From contig SVUA01000001.1 in the NCBI GenBank assembly GCA_015063485.1, positions 124,001-188,000 on the forward strand: a stretch of 64,000 nucleotides of DNA. The letters are read 5' to 3'. This document shows positions 17,109 to 42,821 of this stretch, piece after piece (positions within the stretch are counted from its first letter, which is position 1; each line of letters opens with the position of its first letter). The notes beneath the pieces were generated by a model. That model was not told the DNA's origin. It saw only the letters and a program-made list of their open reading frames with translations, and did not search any database. Both the position numbers and the translations under genes were made by a program. The DNA comes from Oscillospiraceae bacterium (lineage in GTDB: Bacteria; Bacillota; Clostridia; Oscillospirales; CAG-272).

Positions 17109-17177
17109 ATCAATCCTCCTCTGCGGTTTATGTAAGCGGAAAAGTTCACAAAAAACGAGAAATGTTTTTGTCAAAGT

Positions 17178-17426
17178 AACACAAAACAACACGAATAGAG
17201 ACACTTTCCCTACTTTTCTAAATACATTCTAACATATTGTCATGTATTTGTCAATAGTTTTTATAAAAATATTTTTGTTTTTCTTTGTTTTGTGTTGGAA
17301 AATGTTTGAGTTTTTGAAAATCAAATACACGAAACAAGCGTGAAATATATTATATTTAAAAGAATTGATCAATCAAATATAGAACAATAAAGATTAAAAA
17401 TGTTGATTTTGTGTTGTTTTGTGTTG
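17178..17426. promoter_or_regulatory. Three copies of candidate operator TTGTTTTGTGTT in the divergent promoter region
   Basis: AACACAAAACAACAC at 17178-17192 is the exact reverse complement of GTGTTGTTTTGTGTT at 17411-17425; TTGTTTTGTGTTG also at 17285-17297. Confidence 0.65.
17226..17254 (-). promoter_or_regulatory. Putative sigma-A promoter of the BMC operon
   Basis: On minus strand TTGACA (17254-17249), 17-nt spacer, TAGAAT (17231-17226). Confidence 0.7.
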
Positions 17427-17442
17427 CTTTTGGCTTTTGTAT

Positions 17443-17470
17443 TGACAAAAATTTTTCGATATGCTAAAAT
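17443..17470 (+). promoter_or_regulatory. Putative promoter of the divergent gene at 17530
   Basis: TTGACA (17443-17448), 16-nt spacer, TAAAAT (17465-17470). Confidence 0.6.
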
Positions 17471-17529
17471 TATGTTAAATATAATAGAATAATAGGTAGT
17501 TTTTTAATTTATAGTTTTATGGAGGTAGT

Positions 17530-19671
17530 ATGTTTCTTGAAGAGAGAGAAGTAACACCGTTGCCTTATTTTACACCTAAAAAGTGGCAGACCTTGTTGCT
17601 TCGAAATTATGGAATCGTGTCTGCAAAAAGGATAGCGTCTGTTCTTCGGACTGACGAGGAGACCGTTGAAAGAGAAGCGGAGCGCCTTGGGATAAGCGAG
17701 ATAGTCTACGACCCAAAATGGAAAAAATACGGTTACATAAATATAATAAAGAACAACTGGCATCTCGTTCCGTATTCACAGCTTATGGAGCTTTTGGATA
17801 TGACCGCGGAGGAGCTTGACTATTGCTTGAAAGAGGACGATTTTCTCGGCGTTAAGTTGGGAAAATTTAAATCAAAGCTTGAAACCGTGGTGTACGAGCC
17901 ATTGACCGAATCGGAAATAGCGGAGACGGAGAGGATAGCGAAGCTCATAAGATCCGAATTTTTAAGCGATTACGCAAAACCGTTTGATTTTTACGGCTAT
18001 GCAAGAATGGACGGAAGCTCTTCCCAAAATAATAAAGGTGACTTTGACAATATAGTTTACAGCTATTCGATGCTTTACGGCGACACTTTGCTTGACGGAA
18101 ATGAGATAGTTTCAGATGAACAGCTTGCCGCTCTTAAAGCCGTTGGAGTAAACGGACTTTGGATACAGGGAGTGTTGTCAAAGCTCTCTCTTTATCCGTT
18201 TGTCGAGGGTCTTGATGAGGGCTATGAGATAAGACGGGAGAATTTGAAAAAGCTTATAGACAAATGCGCGGGATACGGAATAGGTATTTACTTATATTTG
18301 AATGAACCGAGAGGTGTTTCCGCGGAGCAGCTTACACCGATGACAGAAGCGATAAAAGGAACGTTTGATGATTGCACGTGGAGTCTCTGTACCGAAACAC
18401 AGCCTGTCAAGGACTATCTCTACGAAGCTGTAAAGGATCTTGTCACGGCTGTTCCCACGCTTAAGGGTATTATCACTATTACAATGTCGGAGAACATGAC
18501 CAACTGTCATAGTCGTGGAAATAATATATGTCCGTTCTGCAAGGATAAAAAACATCAGGACGTAGTGCCATGGGTGAACAATATCATTCAGAAAGCAATA
18601 GACGATGCGGGCGCAAAAACTCGGTTGCTGGCTAACCTTTGGGGCTGGGATAAGGGACACGGCTGGAGCATGGAGGATATCTTTGAGGGTATCGATCGCA
18701 TGGACAGAAAGATAGAGATACTTCCGATAAGCGAGAGAGGAACGGTACTTGCAAACGGAAAGCCGTATGCTGTGAACGAATATTCGATAAGCCGAGTCGG
18801 TCCGTGCGAGGAGTCTAAAAAGATTATCGAGTACGCAAAGATGCGCGGGCGTAAAGCTATGGCAAAGGTGCAGATAAATAATACATGGGAAATGGCGGTA
18901 GTGCCATATATCCCCGTGTTTGATCTTGTTATTGAGCATATGGAAAATCTTAAAAGGCTTGGAGTCGACGGGATCATGGCATCGTGGACGCTTGGCGGAT
19001 ATCCAACGGTATCGCTTGACCTTGCGCAGAAGGTCTTTTCAAATGATTTCGATTACGGTGTTTGGTTATGCGAGCATTTCGGAGACAGAGCAAAGGACGT
19101 AATGGAGGCTTCGGAGCACTTCTCCGCGGGCTTTAGACATTATCCTTTCTCGGTAGGAACTATTTACAGAGGAGTACATGAGCTTGGACCTTCCAATCTT
19201 ATGTATGAGAGCGCAACAGGCTACAAGGCAACGATGGTCACGTTTGCTTTCGATGATTATAATACATGGCGCGGAAGAGCCGCTGAAACCAACGAGGGAT
19301 TTTTAAGCTTGCTTGACAGCCTTATTGGCGAATGGGAAAAAGGTCTTTTGCTTCTTGCGGGGCTTGATGGCAACGATAAGTTTAAAGAGTTTTGCGGATT
19401 TGCGAATGTCGTATACGTCAATATAAAGAGCATGGCAGTTCAAATGAGATACAATATTGCAAGAGATGAGGGAAGGATCGCAGACGCGCGAGAGCACCTA
19501 TCAGAAGAAAAGGAGCTTGCAAGAAAGCTTTATGCGCTTGCTTCACAGGATTCCCGAATCGGATATGAAGCGAGCAATCACTATTATTTTACTCAAAATA
19601 ACTTCCTTGAGAAATTTGTAAATATCGATTTCATCGAAAGAGCGTTTGATAAAAAGATCAAAGGAGTATAA
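17530..19671 (+). CDS. Uncharacterised protein: N-terminal HTH-like region plus hexosaminidase/TIM-barrel-like domain
   Basis: 713 aa ORF with RBS ggaggtag; RNYGIVSAKRIASVLRTDEETVEREAERLG looks HTH-like; later GIGIYLYLNEPRGV, ITITMSENMTNCHSRGNNICPFCKDKKHQD, LLANLWGWDKGHGW look like a glycoside-hydrolase-type barrel. Confidence 0.6.
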   Translation: MFLEEREVTPLPYFTPKKWQTLLLRNYGIVSAKRIASVLRTDEETVEREAERLGISEIVYDPKWKKYGYINIIKNNWHLVPYSQLMELLDMTAEELDYCLKEDDFLGVKLGKFKSKLETVVYEPLTESEIAETERIAKLIRSEFLSDYAKPFDFYGYARMDGSSSQNNKGDFDNIVYSYSMLYGDTLLDGNEIVSDEQLAALKAVGVNGLWIQGVLSKLSLYPFVEGLDEGYEIRRENLKKLIDKCAGYGIGIYLYLNEPRGVSAEQLTPMTEAIKGTFDDCTWSLCTETQPVKDYLYEAVKDLVTAVPTLKGIITITMSENMTNCHSRGNNICPFCKDKKHQDVVPWVNNIIQKAIDDAGAKTRLLANLWGWDKGHGWSMEDIFEGIDRMDRKIEILPISERGTVLANGKPYAVNEYSISRVGPCEESKKIIEYAKMRGRKAMAKVQINNTWEMAVVPYIPVFDLVIEHMENLKRLGVDGIMASWTLGGYPTVSLDLAQKVFSNDFDYGVWLCEHFGDRAKDVMEASEHFSAGFRHYPFSVGTIYRGVHELGPSNLMYESATGYKATMVTFAFDDYNTWRGRAAETNEGFLSLLDSLIGEWEKGLLLLAGLDGNDKFKEFCGFANVVYVNIKSMAVQMRYNIARDEGRIADAREHLSEEKELARKLYALASQDSRIGYEASNHYYFTQNNFLEKFVNIDFIERAFDKKIKGV

Positions 19672-19675
19672 ATCC

Positions 19676-20404
19676 ATGGAATATAAAAAAAGCAAATATC
19701 AAGGCTTTGAAATGCTCGAGTTTGCGTTTGAGGGCAGAGAGTGTAAGCTCGTTATACCCAAAAATCCGCGAGAGGACAAAAAATGGTTTTACAAGACCGA
19801 ATATTTTACCGCGTTTCCGTCGTTTCAGATAGAGATGCTTAACAGAGGATATTACCTCGCTCATATGAAAAACATCACGCGCTGGTGTCCCGATGAGGAT
19901 ACAGACGCAAGACCGCGTTTTTGCGAGCTTCTCAAAAAGGAATTCGGACTTTCGGATACTTGTATGCCTATCGGCATGAGCTGCGGAGGAATGCAAGCGG
20001 TCTATTTCGCGGCAAAATATCCGCAGTACGTCAGCGCTATATATCTTGACGCGCCTGTGCTGAACCTTCTTAGCTGTCCTTGCGGCGTGGGGATCGCGGA
20101 GAATAAGCTTTACGAAGAGTTCCTCGGCGCGCGCGGTATAACGGCTTCAGACCTTATAAACTTCAGAAATCACCCGATAGACAACGTTTACAAGCTCATT
20201 GAAAATCGTATTCCCGTAGCTCTTATTTGCGGAGACAGTGACAGAGTAGTGCCGTACGTTGAGAACGGAAAAGCTCTCTCGGAGATGTATAAAAAAACAG
20301 ATATTCCATTCCTTGAAATAATTAAAGAGGGTTGCGACCACCACCCGCACGGAATTGACGATAACACTCCTCTCATAGAATTTGCGGAAAAATATTATAA
20401 ATAA
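19676..20404 (+). CDS. Alpha/beta hydrolase (esterase-like)
   Basis: GMSCGGMQAVYFA nucleophile elbow, ICGDSDRVVPY, catalytic His in GCDHHPHG. Confidence 0.8.
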   Translation: MEYKKSKYQGFEMLEFAFEGRECKLVIPKNPREDKKWFYKTEYFTAFPSFQIEMLNRGYYLAHMKNITRWCPDEDTDARPRFCELLKKEFGLSDTCMPIGMSCGGMQAVYFAAKYPQYVSAIYLDAPVLNLLSCPCGVGIAENKLYEEFLGARGITASDLINFRNHPIDNVYKLIENRIPVALICGDSDRVVPYVENGKALSEMYKKTDIPFLEIIKEGCDHHPHGIDDNTPLIEFAEKYYK

Positions 20405-20551: not shown

Positions 20552-22534
20552 ATGAGCTTGAAGATATTTGAATACGATCCGTATCTTTTGCCGTTTGCGT
20601 CTGATATAGAGCAACGCGTAAAGAATTTTGAAAATAAAAAACGAGAGCTTGTGGGTGAGAAAGGCAGTCTTTTGGATTTTGCCAACGGTCACGAATATTT
20701 CGGCTTCCATAGAACGAATGACGGCTGGGTCTATCGCGAGTGGGCACCCGCGGCGGACGAGCTTTGGCTCATGGGTGATATGAATGGCTGGAACAGAAGC
20801 TCTTTGCCCTTGACTCCTATCGGAAACGGAGTTTTTGAGATATTTTTGTCGGGAACGGACGCCCTTTGGGACGGCTGTTACGTTAAAACTCTCGTGAGAA
20901 ACGGTGACAAAATATTTGAGAGAACTCCTCTTTATATACGCCGTGTGCTTCAAGATCCCGACAATTACACTTGGTGTGGCGTTATAGTGGACGAGCCCGA
21001 ATATAAGTGGAGAAAAAAGAAATTTACACCGAAAAAAGATCTCCTTATTTATGAATGTCATATAGGAATGGCACAGGAAAAAGAGGGGATAGGAACGTAC
21101 CGCGAGTTTTGCGAGAACGTATTGCCGCGCGTACGTGACCTCGGATATACCGCAATACAGATAATGGCGATAATGGAGCATCCGTATTACGCGTCGTTTG
21201 GCTATCAAGTGTCGTCTTTCTTTGCTCCTTGCTCACGATACGGAACGCCGAACGAATTAAAGGCTCTTATCGATAAGGCTCATTCGATGGGGTTAGCCGT
21301 TTTGCTTGACGTTGTTCATTCTCACGCAGTAAAGAACACGGCAGAGGGCATCAATGAATTTGACGGAACTGTGTGTCAGTTTTTCCACGAAGGACCGAGG
21401 GGCGATCACTCGGCGTGGGGGACAAAGCTCTTTAATTATAACAAAAACGAAGTGATTCATTTTCTGCTCTCGAATCTCAAATATTGGCTTTGCGAATTTC
21501 ACTTCGACGGCTTCCGATTTGACGGAGTTACGTCTATGATATATCACGACCACGGGCTTGGTACGTCGTTTGGAGATTATTCTAAATATTTTTCACTCAA
21601 TACGGATACCGAGGCGGTGACCTATCTCCAACTTGCCAATGCGCTTATCAAAGAGGTAAAGCCTGATGCGGTAACGGTCGCGGAGGATATGTCGGCAATG
21701 CCCGGAATGTGTCTGCCTATCGAGGAGGGCGGCATCGGATTTGATTACCGTCTTGCCATGGGAATTCCCGATATGTGGATAAAGATACTAAAGAATCAAA
21801 GCGACGAACAGTGGGACATGTGGCAGATATGGCATGAGCTTACGAGCCGCCGTCCCGCAGAAAAGTATATCGGATACGTTGAGTCGCACGACCAAGCGCT
21901 CGTTGGCGATAAAACAGTGATATTCAGGCTTTGCGACAGTAATATGTATACCTCAATGACAAAGCTTGTCAGCGACCCTGTGATAGATAGAGGAATAGCC
22001 TTGCACAAGCTTATACGCTTCGCTACGCTTACACTTGGCGGAGAGGGATATCTCAATTTCATGGGCAACGAGTTCGGTCACCCAGAGTGGATAGATTTTC
22101 CTCGCGAGGGCAACGGTTGGAGCTATTTTTATTGCCGCAGACAGTGGCATCTTGCCGATGATCCTCTCTTGAGATACGGCGACTTAAATGAGTTCGACCG
22201 AGAAATGATCGGCTTTGCGAAGAATAGCCGAATATTCAGGAAATATCCCAAGTGTCTGTTTATTGACGCAAATGCTCAAGTTCTCGTTTATGAGAGGGCG
22301 GGTAAGGTGTTTGCCATCAATTTCAACCCGAGCAATTCGTACGAGGGATATTATGTAGAGGTTAAGGGAAGGGGAGACTACCGAGTGGTCCTTTCGACCG
22401 ACGAGGCGCGTTTCGGCGGATATGACAGAATTTCGAAAGAATACGTTTATAAAGCCGAAAGGCAACCCGACGGAAAATATCGAATTCGCGTTTATCTTCC
22501 CGCAAGAACGGCGCTTTGCGTAGGTAAGGCTTGA
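20552..22534 (+). CDS. 1,4-alpha-glucan branching enzyme-like GH13 protein
   Basis: GWVYREWAPAADELWLMGDMNGW, DVVHSHAVKN, GFRFDGVTSMIYHDHG, VAEDMSAMPG, GYVESHDQAL, NEFGHPEWIDFPREGN. Confidence 0.92.
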   Translation: MSLKIFEYDPYLLPFASDIEQRVKNFENKKRELVGEKGSLLDFANGHEYFGFHRTNDGWVYREWAPAADELWLMGDMNGWNRSSLPLTPIGNGVFEIFLSGTDALWDGCYVKTLVRNGDKIFERTPLYIRRVLQDPDNYTWCGVIVDEPEYKWRKKKFTPKKDLLIYECHIGMAQEKEGIGTYREFCENVLPRVRDLGYTAIQIMAIMEHPYYASFGYQVSSFFAPCSRYGTPNELKALIDKAHSMGLAVLLDVVHSHAVKNTAEGINEFDGTVCQFFHEGPRGDHSAWGTKLFNYNKNEVIHFLLSNLKYWLCEFHFDGFRFDGVTSMIYHDHGLGTSFGDYSKYFSLNTDTEAVTYLQLANALIKEVKPDAVTVAEDMSAMPGMCLPIEEGGIGFDYRLAMGIPDMWIKILKNQSDEQWDMWQIWHELTSRRPAEKYIGYVESHDQALVGDKTVIFRLCDSNMYTSMTKLVSDPVIDRGIALHKLIRFATLTLGGEGYLNFMGNEFGHPEWIDFPREGNGWSYFYCRRQWHLADDPLLRYGDLNEFDREMIGFAKNSRIFRKYPKCLFIDANAQVLVYERAGKVFAINFNPSNSYEGYYVEVKGRGDYRVVLSTDEARFGGYDRISKEYVYKAERQPDGKYRIRVYLPARTALCVGKA

Positions 22535-33243: not shown

Positions 33244-34245
33244 TTATTTCAATTTTTCGGTTACGAAAGCGTACGCAAGGTCAATACAAGCCTCGGCATC
33301 GGAGAGATCGCAAAGCTCGGTCGACGAGTGGATATATCTCGTCGGTATCGAAATAGCTCCCGCGCGTGTTCCTGCGCCTGCAAGCTGGATAGATGAGGTG
33401 TCCGTGCCTCCGCGCAAAAGTATCTCGCGCTGATAGGGGATCTTGTTTTTCTCCGCAAGAGCGCAAAGATCGGCAACTACTTCCTCGTGGCAGATGACCG
33501 ACGAATCCTTTATCTTGACCGCCGCGCCTCCGCCGACCTTACAAGCCATAGGAGTGTCGCCTATCGTGTCACCCGTTGCGGTAACGTCAAAGCAGAGGGC
33601 AAAATCGGGTGCAAGTCCAAACGCCGCGGGGCGTGCGCCTCGGCAACCGACCTCCTCTTGTACAGAGAATACGTAATCTATCTCGCCCGCGAAATTTCCG
33701 TCAGAGAAATTTTCTGCGATCGCAAGGATAACAGCACAGCCTACTCTGTCGTCAAGCGGTCTGCCCGCGACACGTTTGCCCGCAAGCTTTATAAGCTCGG
33801 GACGGCAGACGAAGAAATCTCCGATAGCCGTTTTTCTCTCGGATTCCTTTTTTGACGTCGTGCCAAGGTCTATATATAGCTTGTCGACAGAATATTCCTT
33901 AACGTCGCTCTGCGGAACGAGAACGCCAAGCGAACCCTTTTCGGATACAACGATGGTGTTTGCCGAAGCGGCGGCACGGATACCGCCAACGTTTGCAACG
34001 CGGAGCATTCCGCTATCCTCGATAAACGTAACGAGAAATCCTATCTCGTCCATGTGGGCGCAAAGCATTATTTTTGCTCCCGCCTTTTTTCCGCGCTTTT
34101 TGGCAATAAGATTTCCGAGCGCGTCTGTCGTTACCTCATCTGCAAATGGAGATATCAAGTCTGAGAGCTTTTCGCGTATTTTATTTTCTCTGCCCGAGAC
34201 AGAGGGGCAAAGGCATAGGCTTTTGAGAGTTGTATATAAATTCAT
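33244..34245 (-). CDS. M42-family metallopeptidase, copy A
   Basis: IMLCAHMDEIGFLVTFI, GRPLDDRVGCAVIL, VFSVQEEVGCRGA, IPTRYIHSSTEL. Confidence 0.92.
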   Translation of the reverse strand: MNLYTTLKSLCLCPSVSGRENKIREKLSDLISPFADEVTTDALGNLIAKKRGKKAGAKIMLCAHMDEIGFLVTFIEDSGMLRVANVGGIRAAASANTIVVSEKGSLGVLVPQSDVKEYSVDKLYIDLGTTSKKESERKTAIGDFFVCRPELIKLAGKRVAGRPLDDRVGCAVILAIAENFSDGNFAGEIDYVFSVQEEVGCRGARPAAFGLAPDFALCFDVTATGDTIGDTPMACKVGGGAAVKIKDSSVICHEEVVADLCALAEKNKIPYQREILLRGGTDTSSIQLAGAGTRAGAISIPTRYIHSSTELCDLSDAEACIDLAYAFVTEKLK

Positions 34246-34257
34246 TTTATTCTCCTT

Positions 34258-35325
34258 TTAAAGCTTTGAGTCAAAATTTCTTATAGCCGCTTCGCAGAGG
34301 TCGCGGAGCGATTCGTAATCGTCAAGAGAAGCGACACACGCGGGGGAGTGCAGATATCTCGTCGGAACGGAAAGAGCCGCCGTGCGCACTCCAACACCTG
34401 TTTTATGAATACTTCCCGCATCGTTTCCGCCTGAAACGTATCGCTTTATCTGCGCTTTTATATCGTTTTCTTTTGCCGTATTCAGTAGAAATTCAACGAA
34501 AGCCTTGTCGTATATTGTTGAGCGGTCCATGAGAGAGAGTACTCCGCCGCCTCCTACGTCCGCAACACGCGCTTCGGGAGAAGTGTTCGCGATATCTCCG
34601 ATAGCCGTCGTTTCAAGCACGAGCGCAAAATCGGGAGATATCGTGTTTGCCGCCGTTAACGCGCCCGAAAGACCTATCTCCTCGCGTACCGTAAAGCAGA
34701 AATAAACGTCAAGGTCAACGCTTGGACGGTTTTTTGCAAGAGCTCCCATTACCTCTATCATAGCCGCGCAACCCATTCTGTCGTCGAGAGCTTTGGATTT
34801 CACACGGCGTTCGTTCGTTCCAAATAAAACGAATTCCGAACAAAAAGTCGCAAACGAGCCTATCTCGGCATACCTTTCGGCTTCCTCTTTATTCGCTGCG
34901 CCGATATCTATATGCAGCTTTTCGGCGGAGAGGACTTTTTCTCTGTCCTCCTTTGATTTGTGATGTATAGCCTTTGAAGCGATAAGTCCGTTCACCTTGC
35001 CGTCTTTACCGCCAAGAGTTATACGTCTGCCCGCAAGAACGCTTCCGCTGATTCCGCCGACCGTGTCAAAGCGGAGATATCCGTCCTCGCATATCTCGGT
35101 CACCATAAATCCGACCTCGTCCATGTGCGAGGATACCATTAATTTTTTCGAGCCGTTTCCAAATGTCATTCTTGCGATAAGATTTCCCATGCGGTCGAGC
35201 TTTATTGAGTCTGCAAGATGGGATATCTTTGATTCTATAAGCCTTGCGACCTCGTCCTCACAGCCCGTAGGTCCGAAAGCGAGAGAAAGTTCGTGTATAA
35301 GCTCAATATTAGCTTTTTTACTCAT
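34258..35325 (-). CDS. M42-family metallopeptidase, copy B
   Basis: LMVSSHMDEVGFMVTEI, SKALDDRMGCAAMIE, CFTVREEIGLSGA, VPTRYLHSPACV. Confidence 0.92.
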   Translation of the reverse strand: MSKKANIELIHELSLAFGPTGCEDEVARLIESKISHLADSIKLDRMGNLIARMTFGNGSKKLMVSSHMDEVGFMVTEICEDGYLRFDTVGGISGSVLAGRRITLGGKDGKVNGLIASKAIHHKSKEDREKVLSAEKLHIDIGAANKEEAERYAEIGSFATFCSEFVLFGTNERRVKSKALDDRMGCAAMIEVMGALAKNRPSVDLDVYFCFTVREEIGLSGALTAANTISPDFALVLETTAIGDIANTSPEARVADVGGGGVLSLMDRSTIYDKAFVEFLLNTAKENDIKAQIKRYVSGGNDAGSIHKTGVGVRTAALSVPTRYLHSPACVASLDDYESLRDLCEAAIRNFDSKL

Positions 35326-36416
35326 GTTGAACTCTCCTTTCTAAAGCCTTCCGCGATTTTTTCAGAACAGATAAAGGCTTTGACAAGCTCTGCGAGAGTT
35401 TCTGCGTCCTTCATGGAGAGGACTTCGTTGTAGGTGTGCATATTTTTCAAGGGCAGACCTATATCGACTACGGGTACACCGTCTCTTACGAGATTGACAG
35501 ACGCCGCGTTAGTGCCCGTTGACGCGGGAGCGGCAACGGTACAGAAGGGTATTTCTTTTTCCTCGCAAAGAGCTTTTGTCATTTGAGTAAGACGGCGGTC
35601 GGTCGCTGCCGATATCGATATAGAGATGCCTTTGGCAAAGGGCACTGTATCGATAGCCTTCGTGTCGGGAACACGGGCAAGATTTACGTCTATTACCATT
35701 GCGTAATCGGGATCTACTCTGTACGTTGCGGGAGAAACTCCGCCGAGTCTGCTCGTTTCCTCGTAAGCAGAGAAGAGGAGACAGACATTTGCCGCAAGTT
35801 CTTCTTTAGGTGTGTTTATGACCGCGAAAGCCGCGCAAGCCCCGCAAGCCTTGTCGTCAAAGCTCTTTCCGACGAGTATCTCTCCGTTTTCTCCGTTACA
35901 CGAAAGCGTACCGTAATTTTCGGGAAAGCCGACGGGAGTGCCTACGGGAATGATCTCCGAAAGCGCGTCTTTGTCAAGCTCAAGTCCCGTATCGATAAGC
36001 ATTTCGGTGATCGCGGGAAGCTTTTTCCCGTCTCCCTTTATCAAGTGGGGAGGGGTCGAAGCAACGACTCCGCGTATTTTTCCTTTTGCGTATATAACGA
36101 CGTCAGACGCCTGCATTATGGCGGGGTCGACTCCGCCCATGGAGGTCATGCGGAGAAATCCGCCGTCGAGAGTTTCGGTAACGATAAAGCCTATCTCGTC
36201 GAAATGCGCGTCAACGAGGACAGTAGGCGCGCCTTTCTTTTCGCAGTCTTTATAAAAGTAATGATTTCCGACGGCATCTGTCTCGTATCGGTCGAAATGT
36301 GAGCCGATAAGGGAGTTGAGTTCGTCTTTGCCGCGACCCTCAAAGCCCGATACAGACATAATGCCGCAGGTCGAGAAGATAAGCTCCTTTAAGCTTATCG
36401 GAAGCTTGTTTTCCAT
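35322..36416 (-). CDS. M42-family metallopeptidase, copy C (more divergent)
   Basis: VLVDAHFDEIGFIVTET, GKSFDDKACGACAAF, LFSAYEETSRLGG, GLPLKNMHTYNEVLS; start set at MENKLPISL. Confidence 0.9.
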   Translation of the reverse strand: MENKLPISLKELIFSTCGIMSVSGFEGRGKDELNSLIGSHFDRYETDAVGNHYFYKDCEKKGAPTVLVDAHFDEIGFIVTETLDGGFLRMTSMGGVDPAIMQASDVVIYAKGKIRGVVASTPPHLIKGDGKKLPAITEMLIDTGLELDKDALSEIIPVGTPVGFPENYGTLSCNGENGEILVGKSFDDKACGACAAFAVINTPKEELAANVCLLFSAYEETSRLGGVSPATYRVDPDYAMVIDVNLARVPDTKAIDTVPFAKGISISISAATDRRLTQMTKALCEEKEIPFCTVAAPASTGTNAASVNLVRDGVPVVDIGLPLKNMHTYNEVLSMKDAETLAELVKAFICSEKIAEGFRKESST

Positions 36417-36442
36417 GTTAAGATCCTTTCTGGATATGAATG

Positions 36443-37984
36443 TTAGCCCCAATATTTTTTATCAAGGCTTCTGTACTGTATAGCTTCTGCCACGTGCTTT
36501 GCGGTTATAGTTTCGCTCTTGTCAAGGTCGGCAATGGTACGCGCTACGCGCATTACTCTGTCGTAGCCGCGCGCCGACATTCCAAGACGTTCGTATGCGG
36601 AGCGGAGAAGATTTTGCGCCGCATCATCGGTCTTGCAATATTTGCGTATCTGTGAAGAGCCCATTTGAGCGTTGCAGTATATGCCTTTTTCTTCACTCAT
36701 TCGCGCGGCGGCAAAGGCTCTTGCCTCGGTCACTCTTTGTCTTACCGTTTCGGAGCTTTCCGCGGGAGCGCTCTTTGCCGAAAGGTCGTCGTAGGAGAGA
36801 GAGGGAAGCTCTATTTGTATATCTATTCGGTCAAGCAAGGGTCCGCTTATGCGCGAAACGTAACGCTTTACGTCTGCTTGCGAACAGGTGCATTTTTGAG
36901 TTGGGTGTCCGAAATATCCGCATCGGCAAGGATTCATGGCTCCAACGAGCATGAATGAGCAGGGATAAGTAACTCGTCCGTGAGCGCGTGTTATGGTAAC
37001 GGTCCTGTCCTCGATAGGCTGACGCAGAGCATCTGTGACCTGCTTTGGAAATTCGGGGAGCTCGTCAAGGAAAAGCACTCCGTTATGCGCAAGAGACGCT
37101 TCACCGGGCAGAGGATTTACTCCGCCGCCGACGAGACTTACGGTACTCATCGTATGGTGAGGTGAGCGGAATGGTCTTGCCGAGACGAGAGAAACGCCCT
37201 CGGGCAGAGTTCCCGCTACCGAATGTATTTTGGTAGCCTCTATCGCTTCCTCAAAGGTAAGCGGAGGCATTATCGACGGCAAACGCTTTGCAAGCATCGA
37301 TTTTCCCGTTCCTGGAGGGCCTATGAGCAAGATATTATGACCGCCCGCGGCGGCTATCTCCATAGCTCTCTTTGCCATAGCCTGTCCGCGTACGTCCGCA
37401 AAATCAAGCTCACAGCTTCTGATTGCGTTATTAAAGGCTTCCTTATCGCACGGAGTTGGAGATATGAGAGAGTTTCCGTTCAAGTGGTCGACGAGCTGAC
37501 GAACGTTCTTTACGCCGTAAACGGTGATACCCTCAACCGCGGCGGCTTCACCCGCGTTCTCCGCGGGAACGTAAAACTCCTTGATCCCCGCGTTTCTCGC
37601 CGCCACGCACATACAAAGAGTTCCGCGTACCGAGCGAAGCTCACCCGAAAGCGAAAGCTCACCGACAAAGCAGCGTGAGGAAAGGTCGACTTCATGACGA
37701 ACTATCCCGCCGCAACGTAAAATACCGAGCAAAATGGCGGTATCGAACGCCGAGCCCTCTTTTCTTCTGTCTGCGGGTGCGAGATTCAGCATAAGGTCGA
37801 GAGACGGAAAACGGTATCCGCTGTTTTCACAAGCAGTCCTTACACGTTCCTTTGCCTCTTTAACTGCCGCATCGGGAAGACCGACCAGCTCAAATTCGGG
37901 TATTCTGTTAAGTCCGTTACATTCGACCGATACGATGTATCCGTCAATTCCAAAAAGACCTGCGCTATACACGGTCGTCAACAT
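36443..37984 (-). CDS. YifB/ComM-family Mg-chelatase-like AAA ATPase
   Basis: [73 protein letters not shown]. Confidence 0.95.
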
Positions 37985-40646: not shown

Positions 40647-42821
40647 TTATTTTATTATTTTCACACCGTCAGGAGCATCTACTGTCACTTGCGGTGTCCC
40701 GTTTTCATCGCGCTTCCAAGAGACCGTGACTTTTCCTGTGGGAAGCTCGTGCCATGCACTTGCATAGTCGAGGTCGTCAACGAATACGGGAGATACCTTA
40801 ATTGTATTACTGTCAACAACGGTAAGACCTGCGAGAGTCGTCATAAACCAGCGCGCGTAGTCGCAGAGAAAATGATGGTTGTGAGATGCGCAATCATAGG
40901 GATTGGGTAACATCATTTCGACCATAGCGGTCTCACCTATATCGAGAAAATATTTATAAGAGGGGAACTCGTCTCCCATTATCATTTTATACGCGAGGTC
41001 GGTATAGCCAAATTTTGATAGAACGTGGAATATGCAATGAAGTCCGATAAATCCGCAATCGTATGCGTCACCTTTTTCGTGAATAAATTCAACAAGACGG
41101 TCGCACGCGGCTTTTTCCTCGTCTTCGTTGAAAACGCCATAATACAGAGGTATGCATTGGCTGCTCTGACAATTACCCTTTACGGTCATAGTGTTAAGAT
41201 CGATAAGCTCTCGGCGTACCGTCTCACGCATTTCTTTTGCTATCCCGTTTGCGTATTCGGCATCATGAGTATATCCGATGGCTGTAAACATTTCGCCCGC
41301 CTTTTTTGCTATATCCATTACCATTACAGAATCCGTAAGGGCTAAAGGAGCATCATAATGGCTCGCGTGCAGTTTGCCTACGGGTACCCAGTCGCCAAGA
41401 CCGATAGCAACAGTTCCGTCCTCGCTTCTACGGGTCATAACATAGGCGAGATAACGCATCATAGCGTGCGCGTTTTCGCGTATAACGTCGGTATCGTTTC
41501 TGAATTTGTAGAGCATATACGGAAGATTGAAAAGAACGCTGTCCCACGTAGGTCCGTTGCCCCATTTAAATCCCCAGCCCGTTGTGGGGACGATACCGGG
41601 TAGCTCTCCTCTGTCATTTTGTGCCTTGCGTATGTTGTCGAGCCAAACGCGCCATGAAGTATCTACGCCGTAAAGAAGAGCCATTCTGTCGGCAGACATT
41701 GCGGCATCGCCCGTCCAGCCGTTCTTTTCTCTGTGAGGGCAATCGGTGGGGAAGTAGAAGAAGTTTGAACGGTCGGCATTCACCGCCATATCAAACAGCT
41801 TGTTTACGGTTTCATTCGAGCATTCGAATCCGCCTATGGTTTTAATATCGGACGACATAACAAGATAGGTGAGAAGATCTTCGGTCGCCTGCTCTTCGGT
41901 TATACCCTCGACCTTTACGTAGCGGAAGCCGTAATACGAGAAGTATGGTGTGTAGACCTCCGTTCCCTCGCCCGAAGCGATATAGCGAACAGTCTGATTG
42001 TAGTTATCGTAATAGCTGCAATCTATGTTTTTTCGGAAAAAGCGGATCCTGTCGTTGTTAAACTTTCCTTCGTGTATAAGCTCACCGTGCCACATGGTAA
42101 TTCTCTGATTCTTTTCTGCATTTATCGAGAGACGGCATACGCCCGCGGTGTTTATTCCGAAGTCGTAGATATACGCATCGTCTTCTTTAGTTATACTTAC
42201 GGGCTTTAATTCTTTTATAATGACGATAGGCTCGGCTTCGCAAGACTTCATATCTCCTCTCGGAGTTTCTGCGGTGAGTGCGGGAGTCCATGCGGAATCG
42301 TCAAAGCCTACGGTGTTCCAACCGTTAAGCTTGAGATTTGCATCGTATGTTTCTCCGAGACGGAGATCGTCAAAAAGAATGGGAGACGGATGCGCTTTAA
42401 AGCTCTCGTCGGCTATAAACGAAAACTCGCCGTTCGCGGTCTCTGCTTTGAATTCAAGAGCAACTCTCGGCGCGCCGCGAAAATCCGCCTTTTCAAAATC
42501 CCAGATAGCACCGCCAAAGCTATTCAAAAAACCGTTCCCGAGCATTATACCGATAACGTTTTCTCCAACGTTTAAAAGCTGTGTAACGTCGTAGGTGTCA
42601 TAATAACAGAGATGATCGGGATTGCTTACGTAGGGAGCGATTTGCCCTTTGGTAATGTTTTTTCCGTTTATAAACAGAACGTAAAAACCAAGACCGCAGA
42701 TGGATACAGACGCTTTGCCTACAGGCGCGTTGATATTAAAGCTCTTACGCAAAAGCGGGGCGGGAACGTGCTCGTTTGCATCGCAATAGTTTTCTGTTGC
42801 TTTAATAAAATTTTTATTCAT
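40647..42821 (-). CDS. GH78 alpha-L-rhamnosidase-like protein
   Basis: FINGKNITKGQIAPYVSNPDHLCYYDTYDVT, NFFYFPTDCPHREKNGWTGDAAMSADRM, GDWVPVG, C-terminal beta-sandwich typical of GH78. Confidence 0.92.
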   Translation of the reverse strand: MNKNFIKATENYCDANEHVPAPLLRKSFNINAPVGKASVSICGLGFYVLFINGKNITKGQIAPYVSNPDHLCYYDTYDVTQLLNVGENVIGIMLGNGFLNSFGGAIWDFEKADFRGAPRVALEFKAETANGEFSFIADESFKAHPSPILFDDLRLGETYDANLKLNGWNTVGFDDSAWTPALTAETPRGDMKSCEAEPIVIIKELKPVSITKEDDAYIYDFGINTAGVCRLSINAEKNQRITMWHGELIHEGKFNNDRIRFFRKNIDCSYYDNYNQTVRYIASGEGTEVYTPYFSYYGFRYVKVEGITEEQATEDLLTYLVMSSDIKTIGGFECSNETVNKLFDMAVNADRSNFFYFPTDCPHREKNGWTGDAAMSADRMALLYGVDTSWRVWLDNIRKAQNDRGELPGIVPTTGWGFKWGNGPTWDSVLFNLPYMLYKFRNDTDVIRENAHAMMRYLAYVMTRRSEDGTVAIGLGDWVPVGKLHASHYDAPLALTDSVMVMDIAKKAGEMFTAIGYTHDAEYANGIAKEMRETVRRELIDLNTMTVKGNCQSSQCIPLYYGVFNEDEEKAACDRLVEFIHEKGDAYDCGFIGLHCIFHVLSKFGYTDLAYKMIMGDEFPSYKYFLDIGETAMVEMMLPNPYDCASHNHHFLCDYARWFMTTLAGLTVVDSNTIKVSPVFVDDLDYASAWHELPTGKVTVSWKRDENGTPQVTVDAPDGVKIIK

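Follow-up and report, generated by a model that had tools for sequence, protein, structure and literature searches.

The described systems closest to the gene analysed here are glycoside hydrolases. They include the rhamnogalacturonan-II enzyme BP0997 of GH138, a family defined by alpha-galacturonidase activity, the GH20 beta-hexosaminidases and lacto-N-biosidases, in which the Asp of a D-E pair serves substrate-assisted catalysis, and the GH67 alpha-glucuronidases, which carry the Glu acting as general acid in a 'DSE' motif. In GH42 enzymes of clan GH-A the zinc ligands are a Cys cluster that follows the acid/base Glu. The gene itself lies in a 64,000-nucleotide stretch of an Oscillospiraceae bacterium genome (contig SVUA01000001.1; hereafter the window), and its product is in our judgement likely to be a glycoside hydrolase, cytoplasmic and probably exo-acting, from an unnamed family within the TIM-barrel superfamily of GH20, GH67, GH84, GH89 and GH138. 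The gene (hereafter the barrel gene), its signals and the gene following it are:

17530–19671, + strand: glycosidase-like protein of 713 aa from an unnamed family; it has a tandem HTH-like domain, a TIM barrel and a helical bundle (ORF, relatives, model)
17521–17525, + strand: ribosome-binding site GGAGG of the barrel gene
17442–17470, + strand: sigma-70-like promoter of the barrel gene, TTGACA-17-TAAAAT (11/12)
19676–20404, + strand: alpha/beta-hydrolase gene (Pfam), with its start codon 4 bases past the barrel-gene stop

The ORF begins with ATG and is real, with its own ribosome-binding site and promoter-like site. The alpha/beta-hydrolase gene is probably part of the same transcript, and is rarely conserved as a partner of the barrel gene. 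Elsewhere in the window, positions 20552–22534 encode a divergent GlgB-like protein that scores 304 bits against the NCBIfam branching-enzyme model (cut-off 577), and there are three M42-type aminopeptidase genes in tandem at 33244–36452.

The window protein has no match in Pfam-A or NCBIfam at E≤1 and no meaningful match to PDB sequences, and a 66-row family profile has zero matches to PDB sequences. A literature search, thin on subscription papers, found no account of the family. The original prediction had proposed something undescribed here, and this holds insofar as the family is unnamed.

An AlphaFold2 model built from 66 sequences (mean pLDDT 94.3, pTM 0.93) has an all-helical N-domain, a TIM barrel and a C-terminal helical bundle, arranged as follows:

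17575–17700, + strand: HTH-like repeat 1, residues 16–57 (model, hhalign)
17710–17874, + strand: HTH-like repeat 2, residues 61–115, with invariant W77, D104, F105, K109 and K114
17875–18039, + strand: linker, residues 116–170, of low confidence around 151–170; the GH20b-like zincin domain of type B relatives sits here (model)
18040–19029, + strand: TIM barrel, about residues 171–500 (model, Foldseek, profile alignment)
19039–19668, + strand: C-terminal helical bundle, residues 504–713 (model)

A Foldseek search of the PDB with this model, a check suggested with the original prediction, places GH138 at the top (E=2.6e-11), followed by GH20, GH67, GH84 and GH89. The alignment to BP0997 extends over about 725 columns, but at only about 11% identity and a TM-score of about 0.43, and neither the protein nor its profile has a PDB sequence match; we know of no tandem HTH-like domain in GH138. 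TM-scores to the PDB matches as a whole are low (about 0.3–0.5) and the rmsd is large, and therefore the superfamily is shown rather than the family, and the catalytic partner is unreadable from superposition. A search of a viral structure library gave generic barrel matches only. At the level of sequence profiles, a 24-row alignment spanning four architectures of the wider family matches GH20 lacto-N-biosidase chains in the PDB with E=2e-6 and 4e-4, the first of these covering the zincin domain and the first barrel strands. In hhalign comparisons with GH20 and GH67 alignments, built locally with genomes taken from the window's own class and phylum, the wider family scores 98% and 96% respectively; the profile match to GH42 is weak (67–78%), and NAGLU (PF05089), sought for a GH89 alignment, is absent from 150 genomes of the phylum. 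The GH20-type barrel proposed originally is thus seen as a TIM barrel in the model with a distant likeness to GH20 and GH67, and both the fold and the profile evidence support the cytoplasmic glycosidase that had been suggested with it.

Scanning of one-genome-per-species contigs confirmed 486 stretches of the family, the best 80 of which are from Clostridia, Planctomycetota, Lentisphaerota, Chloroflexota, Omnitrophota, Hydrogenedentota, Armatimonadota and Kiritimatiellae. Barrel-protein matches are present in 12 of 59 relatives and in 30 of the 291 genomes of the class, and in a tree the window protein groups with Clostridia, mostly ruminant-gut ones. There are four architectures. Architecture A, the window form, has the tandem HTH-like domain, then the barrel, then the helices, and architecture B (about 830 aa) has a GH20b-like zincin domain between the HTH-like domain and the barrel. 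Architecture C (about 900 aa) consists of zincin, barrel, helices and a C-terminal extension, and architecture D (about 700 aa) of zincin, barrel and helices, without the Cys4 site described below. The insert in B aligns to the N-domains of C and D at 97% (hhalign), and the simplest reading, in which the direction of change is assumed, is that the zincin domain was lost from the window form. The zincin-TIM-helical order of the sister forms is also a likeness to GH67, and their zincin domain a likeness to GH20, whereas the window protein lacks the GH20b zincin-like N-domain. Neither Pfam nor NCBIfam assigns architectures C and D (L013, L119–L124, L011–L016) above cut-off, and these are unnamed as well. 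Genes neighbouring family members include those for GH38, GH78, GH2 and DUF4838/GH67N proteins and AraC regulators. One example is a DUF4838/GH67N protein, predicted to be glycosidase-like, that is encoded immediately upstream of a barrel homologue (L037:7920–9941); another neighbour is a 907-aa protein without any Pfam match directly after a barrel homologue (L079:5404–8124).

The candidate active-site residues and the Cys cluster are:

18301–18312, + strand: NEPR motif, residues 258–261, at the end of beta3; in types A and B both E259 and R261 are invariant
18388–18390, + strand: C287, invariant; proposed zinc ligand
18487–18495, + strand: S320-E321-N322, at the end of beta4; E321 is the proposed general acid, and Ser replaces the GH20 Asp
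18505–18540, + strand: Cys cluster C326, C334 and C337; proposed zinc site together with C287 (invariance; GH42 alignment)
18733–18735, + strand: E402, beta6; candidate second carboxylate, Glu/Asp in all four architectures
18865–18891, + strand: K446...W453-E454, beta7; E454 is a candidate second carboxylate, Glu/Asp in all four architectures

All of the candidate catalytic acids are invariant in the alignment of 66 relatives. By hhalign, E321 aligns with the catalytic Glu of the GH20 D-E pair and with the general acid Glu of the GH67 'DSE' motif, and it would protonate the leaving group, with E402 or E454 as the putative base or nucleophile. GH67 differs in that it has no certain counterpart of E402 or E454, and the Pfam GH67 models do not match the window protein. 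At the GH20 Asp position there is Ser320 (Ser in 64 of the 66 relatives, Ala or Gly in the other architectures), and therefore canonical GH20 chemistry is not expected; of the catalytic acid pair to which the original prediction drew attention, the Glu is conserved and its Asp partner is absent. A GH20-type beta-N-acetylhexosaminidase might be supposed because sequence profiles place GH20 closest among the characterised families, but with the Asp for substrate-assisted catalysis replaced and no match to the Pfam Glyco_hydro_20 model at E≤1 we consider this improbable.

The CH..CPFC cluster noted originally is real, and comprises C326, C334 and C337 together with C287; all four are invariant in the 66 relatives and across architectures A, B and C, and judging from sequence they are likely to form a zinc site. 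This set resembles the GH42 zinc cluster in that a CxxC cluster comes after a catalytic Glu and a further Cys lies upstream, after beta3, and, as in GH42, the four Cys may hold a structural zinc beside the active site. The window protein differs in having a helical C-domain rather than the GH42 C-terminal domains, and S-E-N rather than N-E at beta4.

A more specific version of the glycosidase reading is an alpha-uronidase or similar exo-enzyme that partners GH78 rhamnosidases on rhamnogalacturonan-type oligosaccharides. The invariant basic residues R261, K446, K109 and K114 could bind a carboxylate, and the top fold match is a rhamnogalacturonan-II enzyme, with the GH67 alpha-glucuronidase among the next. 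However, fold rank is no predictor of substrate, and R261 is lost in architecture C; the neighbouring genes that bear on this alternative are described below.

The two HTH-like stretches of the original prediction are all-helical in the model and form a tandem repeat, in that the halves of the N-domain align to each other at 93% (hhalign), against no more than about 2% for 11 segments from elsewhere in the protein. Predicted alone, the N-domain has a pLDDT of 93.5, and its Foldseek matches are nearly all HTH regulators. These features favour an alternative in which the protein is a sugar-sensing transcription factor, with the tandem HTH binding the divergent promoter region and a catalytically dead or weak barrel sensing the sugar. 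However, the Foldseek matches are weak (best E-value 0.28, query TM below 0.3), such that none is a significant match to a DNA-binding fold, and matches to the Pfam HTH models are all sub-threshold. The N-domain is also acidic (median pI 5.5), and a dead barrel fits poorly with the invariance of every candidate catalytic acid.

The family's distribution bears on the same alternative. The window protein lacks a signal peptide, in agreement with the original prediction, but about ten planctomycete and omnitrophote members, which form one supported clade in the tree, have a hydrophobic Sec-like signal immediately before the family start (called by hydropathy and by eye), and a cytoplasmic location is not upheld across the family. 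These homologues have the same invariant N-domain and barrel residues and, from their sequences, appear to be exported; W77, D104, F105, K109 and K114 are common to all 66 relatives. Because the exported-looking clade shares its invariant residues, the conserved role of the HTH-like domain is probably not DNA binding. Most likely it has a structural part in the enzyme, as an accessory domain that would pack against the barrel. The sugar-sensing regulator offered originally as the second choice is disfavoured by these exported-looking homologues, the acidic domain and the want of a significant DNA-binding fold match.

The barrel gene is divergent from a GRM5-like BMC operon on the opposite strand, as originally described and as seen in the ORF and operon annotation. 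The operon encodes the enzymes GRE, a radical-SAM activase, a class II aldolase, an alcohol dehydrogenase, acetate kinase and an aldehyde dehydrogenase, as well as an EutP/PduV-like GTPase, an HbpS/DUF336-like protein, BMC shell proteins, an RnfC-like protein and a DeoR regulator, a content that agrees with the fucose/rhamnose type (PMC4207490). Two copies of a 16-mer are present in the intergenic region:

17411–17426, + strand: 16-mer GTGTTGTTTTGTGTTG, a candidate operator that lies upstream of the barrel promoter
17177–17192, − strand: the same 16-mer, with A as the last base, in the GRE-operon leader

These two are the only exact copies in the window's genome. The 23-nt arms around them match at 21 positions, which is reached in 0 of 300 shuffles, and conservation of the 16-mer upstream of GRE in relatives is weak at most. 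A third, partial copy is at 17282–17297. The 16-mer was also considered as the mark of a genome-wide regulon and rejected as such, a one-mismatch copy being downstream, not upstream, of the L-fucose isomerase gene located elsewhere in this genome (L222:845–2677). We note that the gene divergent from the isomerase is AraC-like, as judged by N-terminal sequence only. As a candidate operator, the 16-mer might be the target of the DeoR regulator that the operon encodes. The divergent arrangement and the repeated 16-mer would also suit the sugar-sensing transcription factor, but the BMC operon has its own DeoR regulator, and taken with the evidence above we regard that alternative as quite improbable. 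Least probable of all, and to us far-fetched, is a bifunctional trigger enzyme, whose HTH-like domain in the cytoplasmic Clostridia members would bind the 16-mer and whose barrel substrate would relieve the binding, coupling glycan cleavage to BMC expression.

Association of the barrel gene with GRM loci, raised in the original prediction, does not extend beyond the window. GRE is kept at 82–86% identity in eight same-genus genomes, and in none of these is the barrel gene, or any of the genes following it, beside GRE within the flank examined (about 0.5 kb in G008). A barrel homologue is present in just one of these genomes (G014), at another place, and G008 has no barrel match anywhere; nor are there BMC genes in the flanks of the nine closest barrel homologues. 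Since the eight GRE genomes and the nine closest homologues lack it, BMC linkage is not a family property, and the BMC neighbourhood of the barrel gene is mostly incidental, with a local functional tie possible.

There are several instances of GH78 genes near GRE or barrel homologues. The gene divergent to GRE is GH78 rhamnosidase-like in two relatives (G012 and G017), and in L019, where the barrel protein shares 62% identity with that of the window, homologues of both these genes come after the barrel gene. A GH78 gene also adjoins the barrel gene in L085, and the window contains a GH78 alpha-L-rhamnosidase gene (40647–42821), consistent with rhamnose use. The L-fucose isomerase gene mentioned above is a further hint in the direction of rhamnose. 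GH78-like genes of the G012/G017 type are at just 2 of 80 barrel-homologue loci (tblastn), and GH38 accounts for 4 of 105 immediate neighbours of family members. The GH78 links are indirect hints of rhamnose-bearing glycans, GH38 being equally common as a family neighbour, and a functional tie of the barrel gene to rhamnose or fucose in the window's genome, through the 16-mer and the GH78 links, is plausible. The adjoining GH78 genes are also what an alpha-uronidase acting with rhamnosidases would predict, but pectin genes are missing from most neighbourhoods and GH38 occurs equally often, and this narrower assignment seems doubtful. For the exo-acting glycoside hydrolase that we favour, the substrate might be oligosaccharides with L-rhamnose or a neighbouring uronic acid, and the released L-rhamnose might go to the adjacent GRM5-like BMC pathway; the rhamnose/uronide link is a weak one, drawn from few neighbourhoods.

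The window protein represents a widespread bacterial family that has been missed by current domain libraries, and its features are now named. Enzymatic confirmation would make it the founder of a new family of glycoside hydrolases, one that combines an unusual accessory domain of HTH-like shape with a probable zinc site close to the active site. It would also show a DNA-binding-like fold put to new use in an enzyme, whether exported or cytoplasmic.
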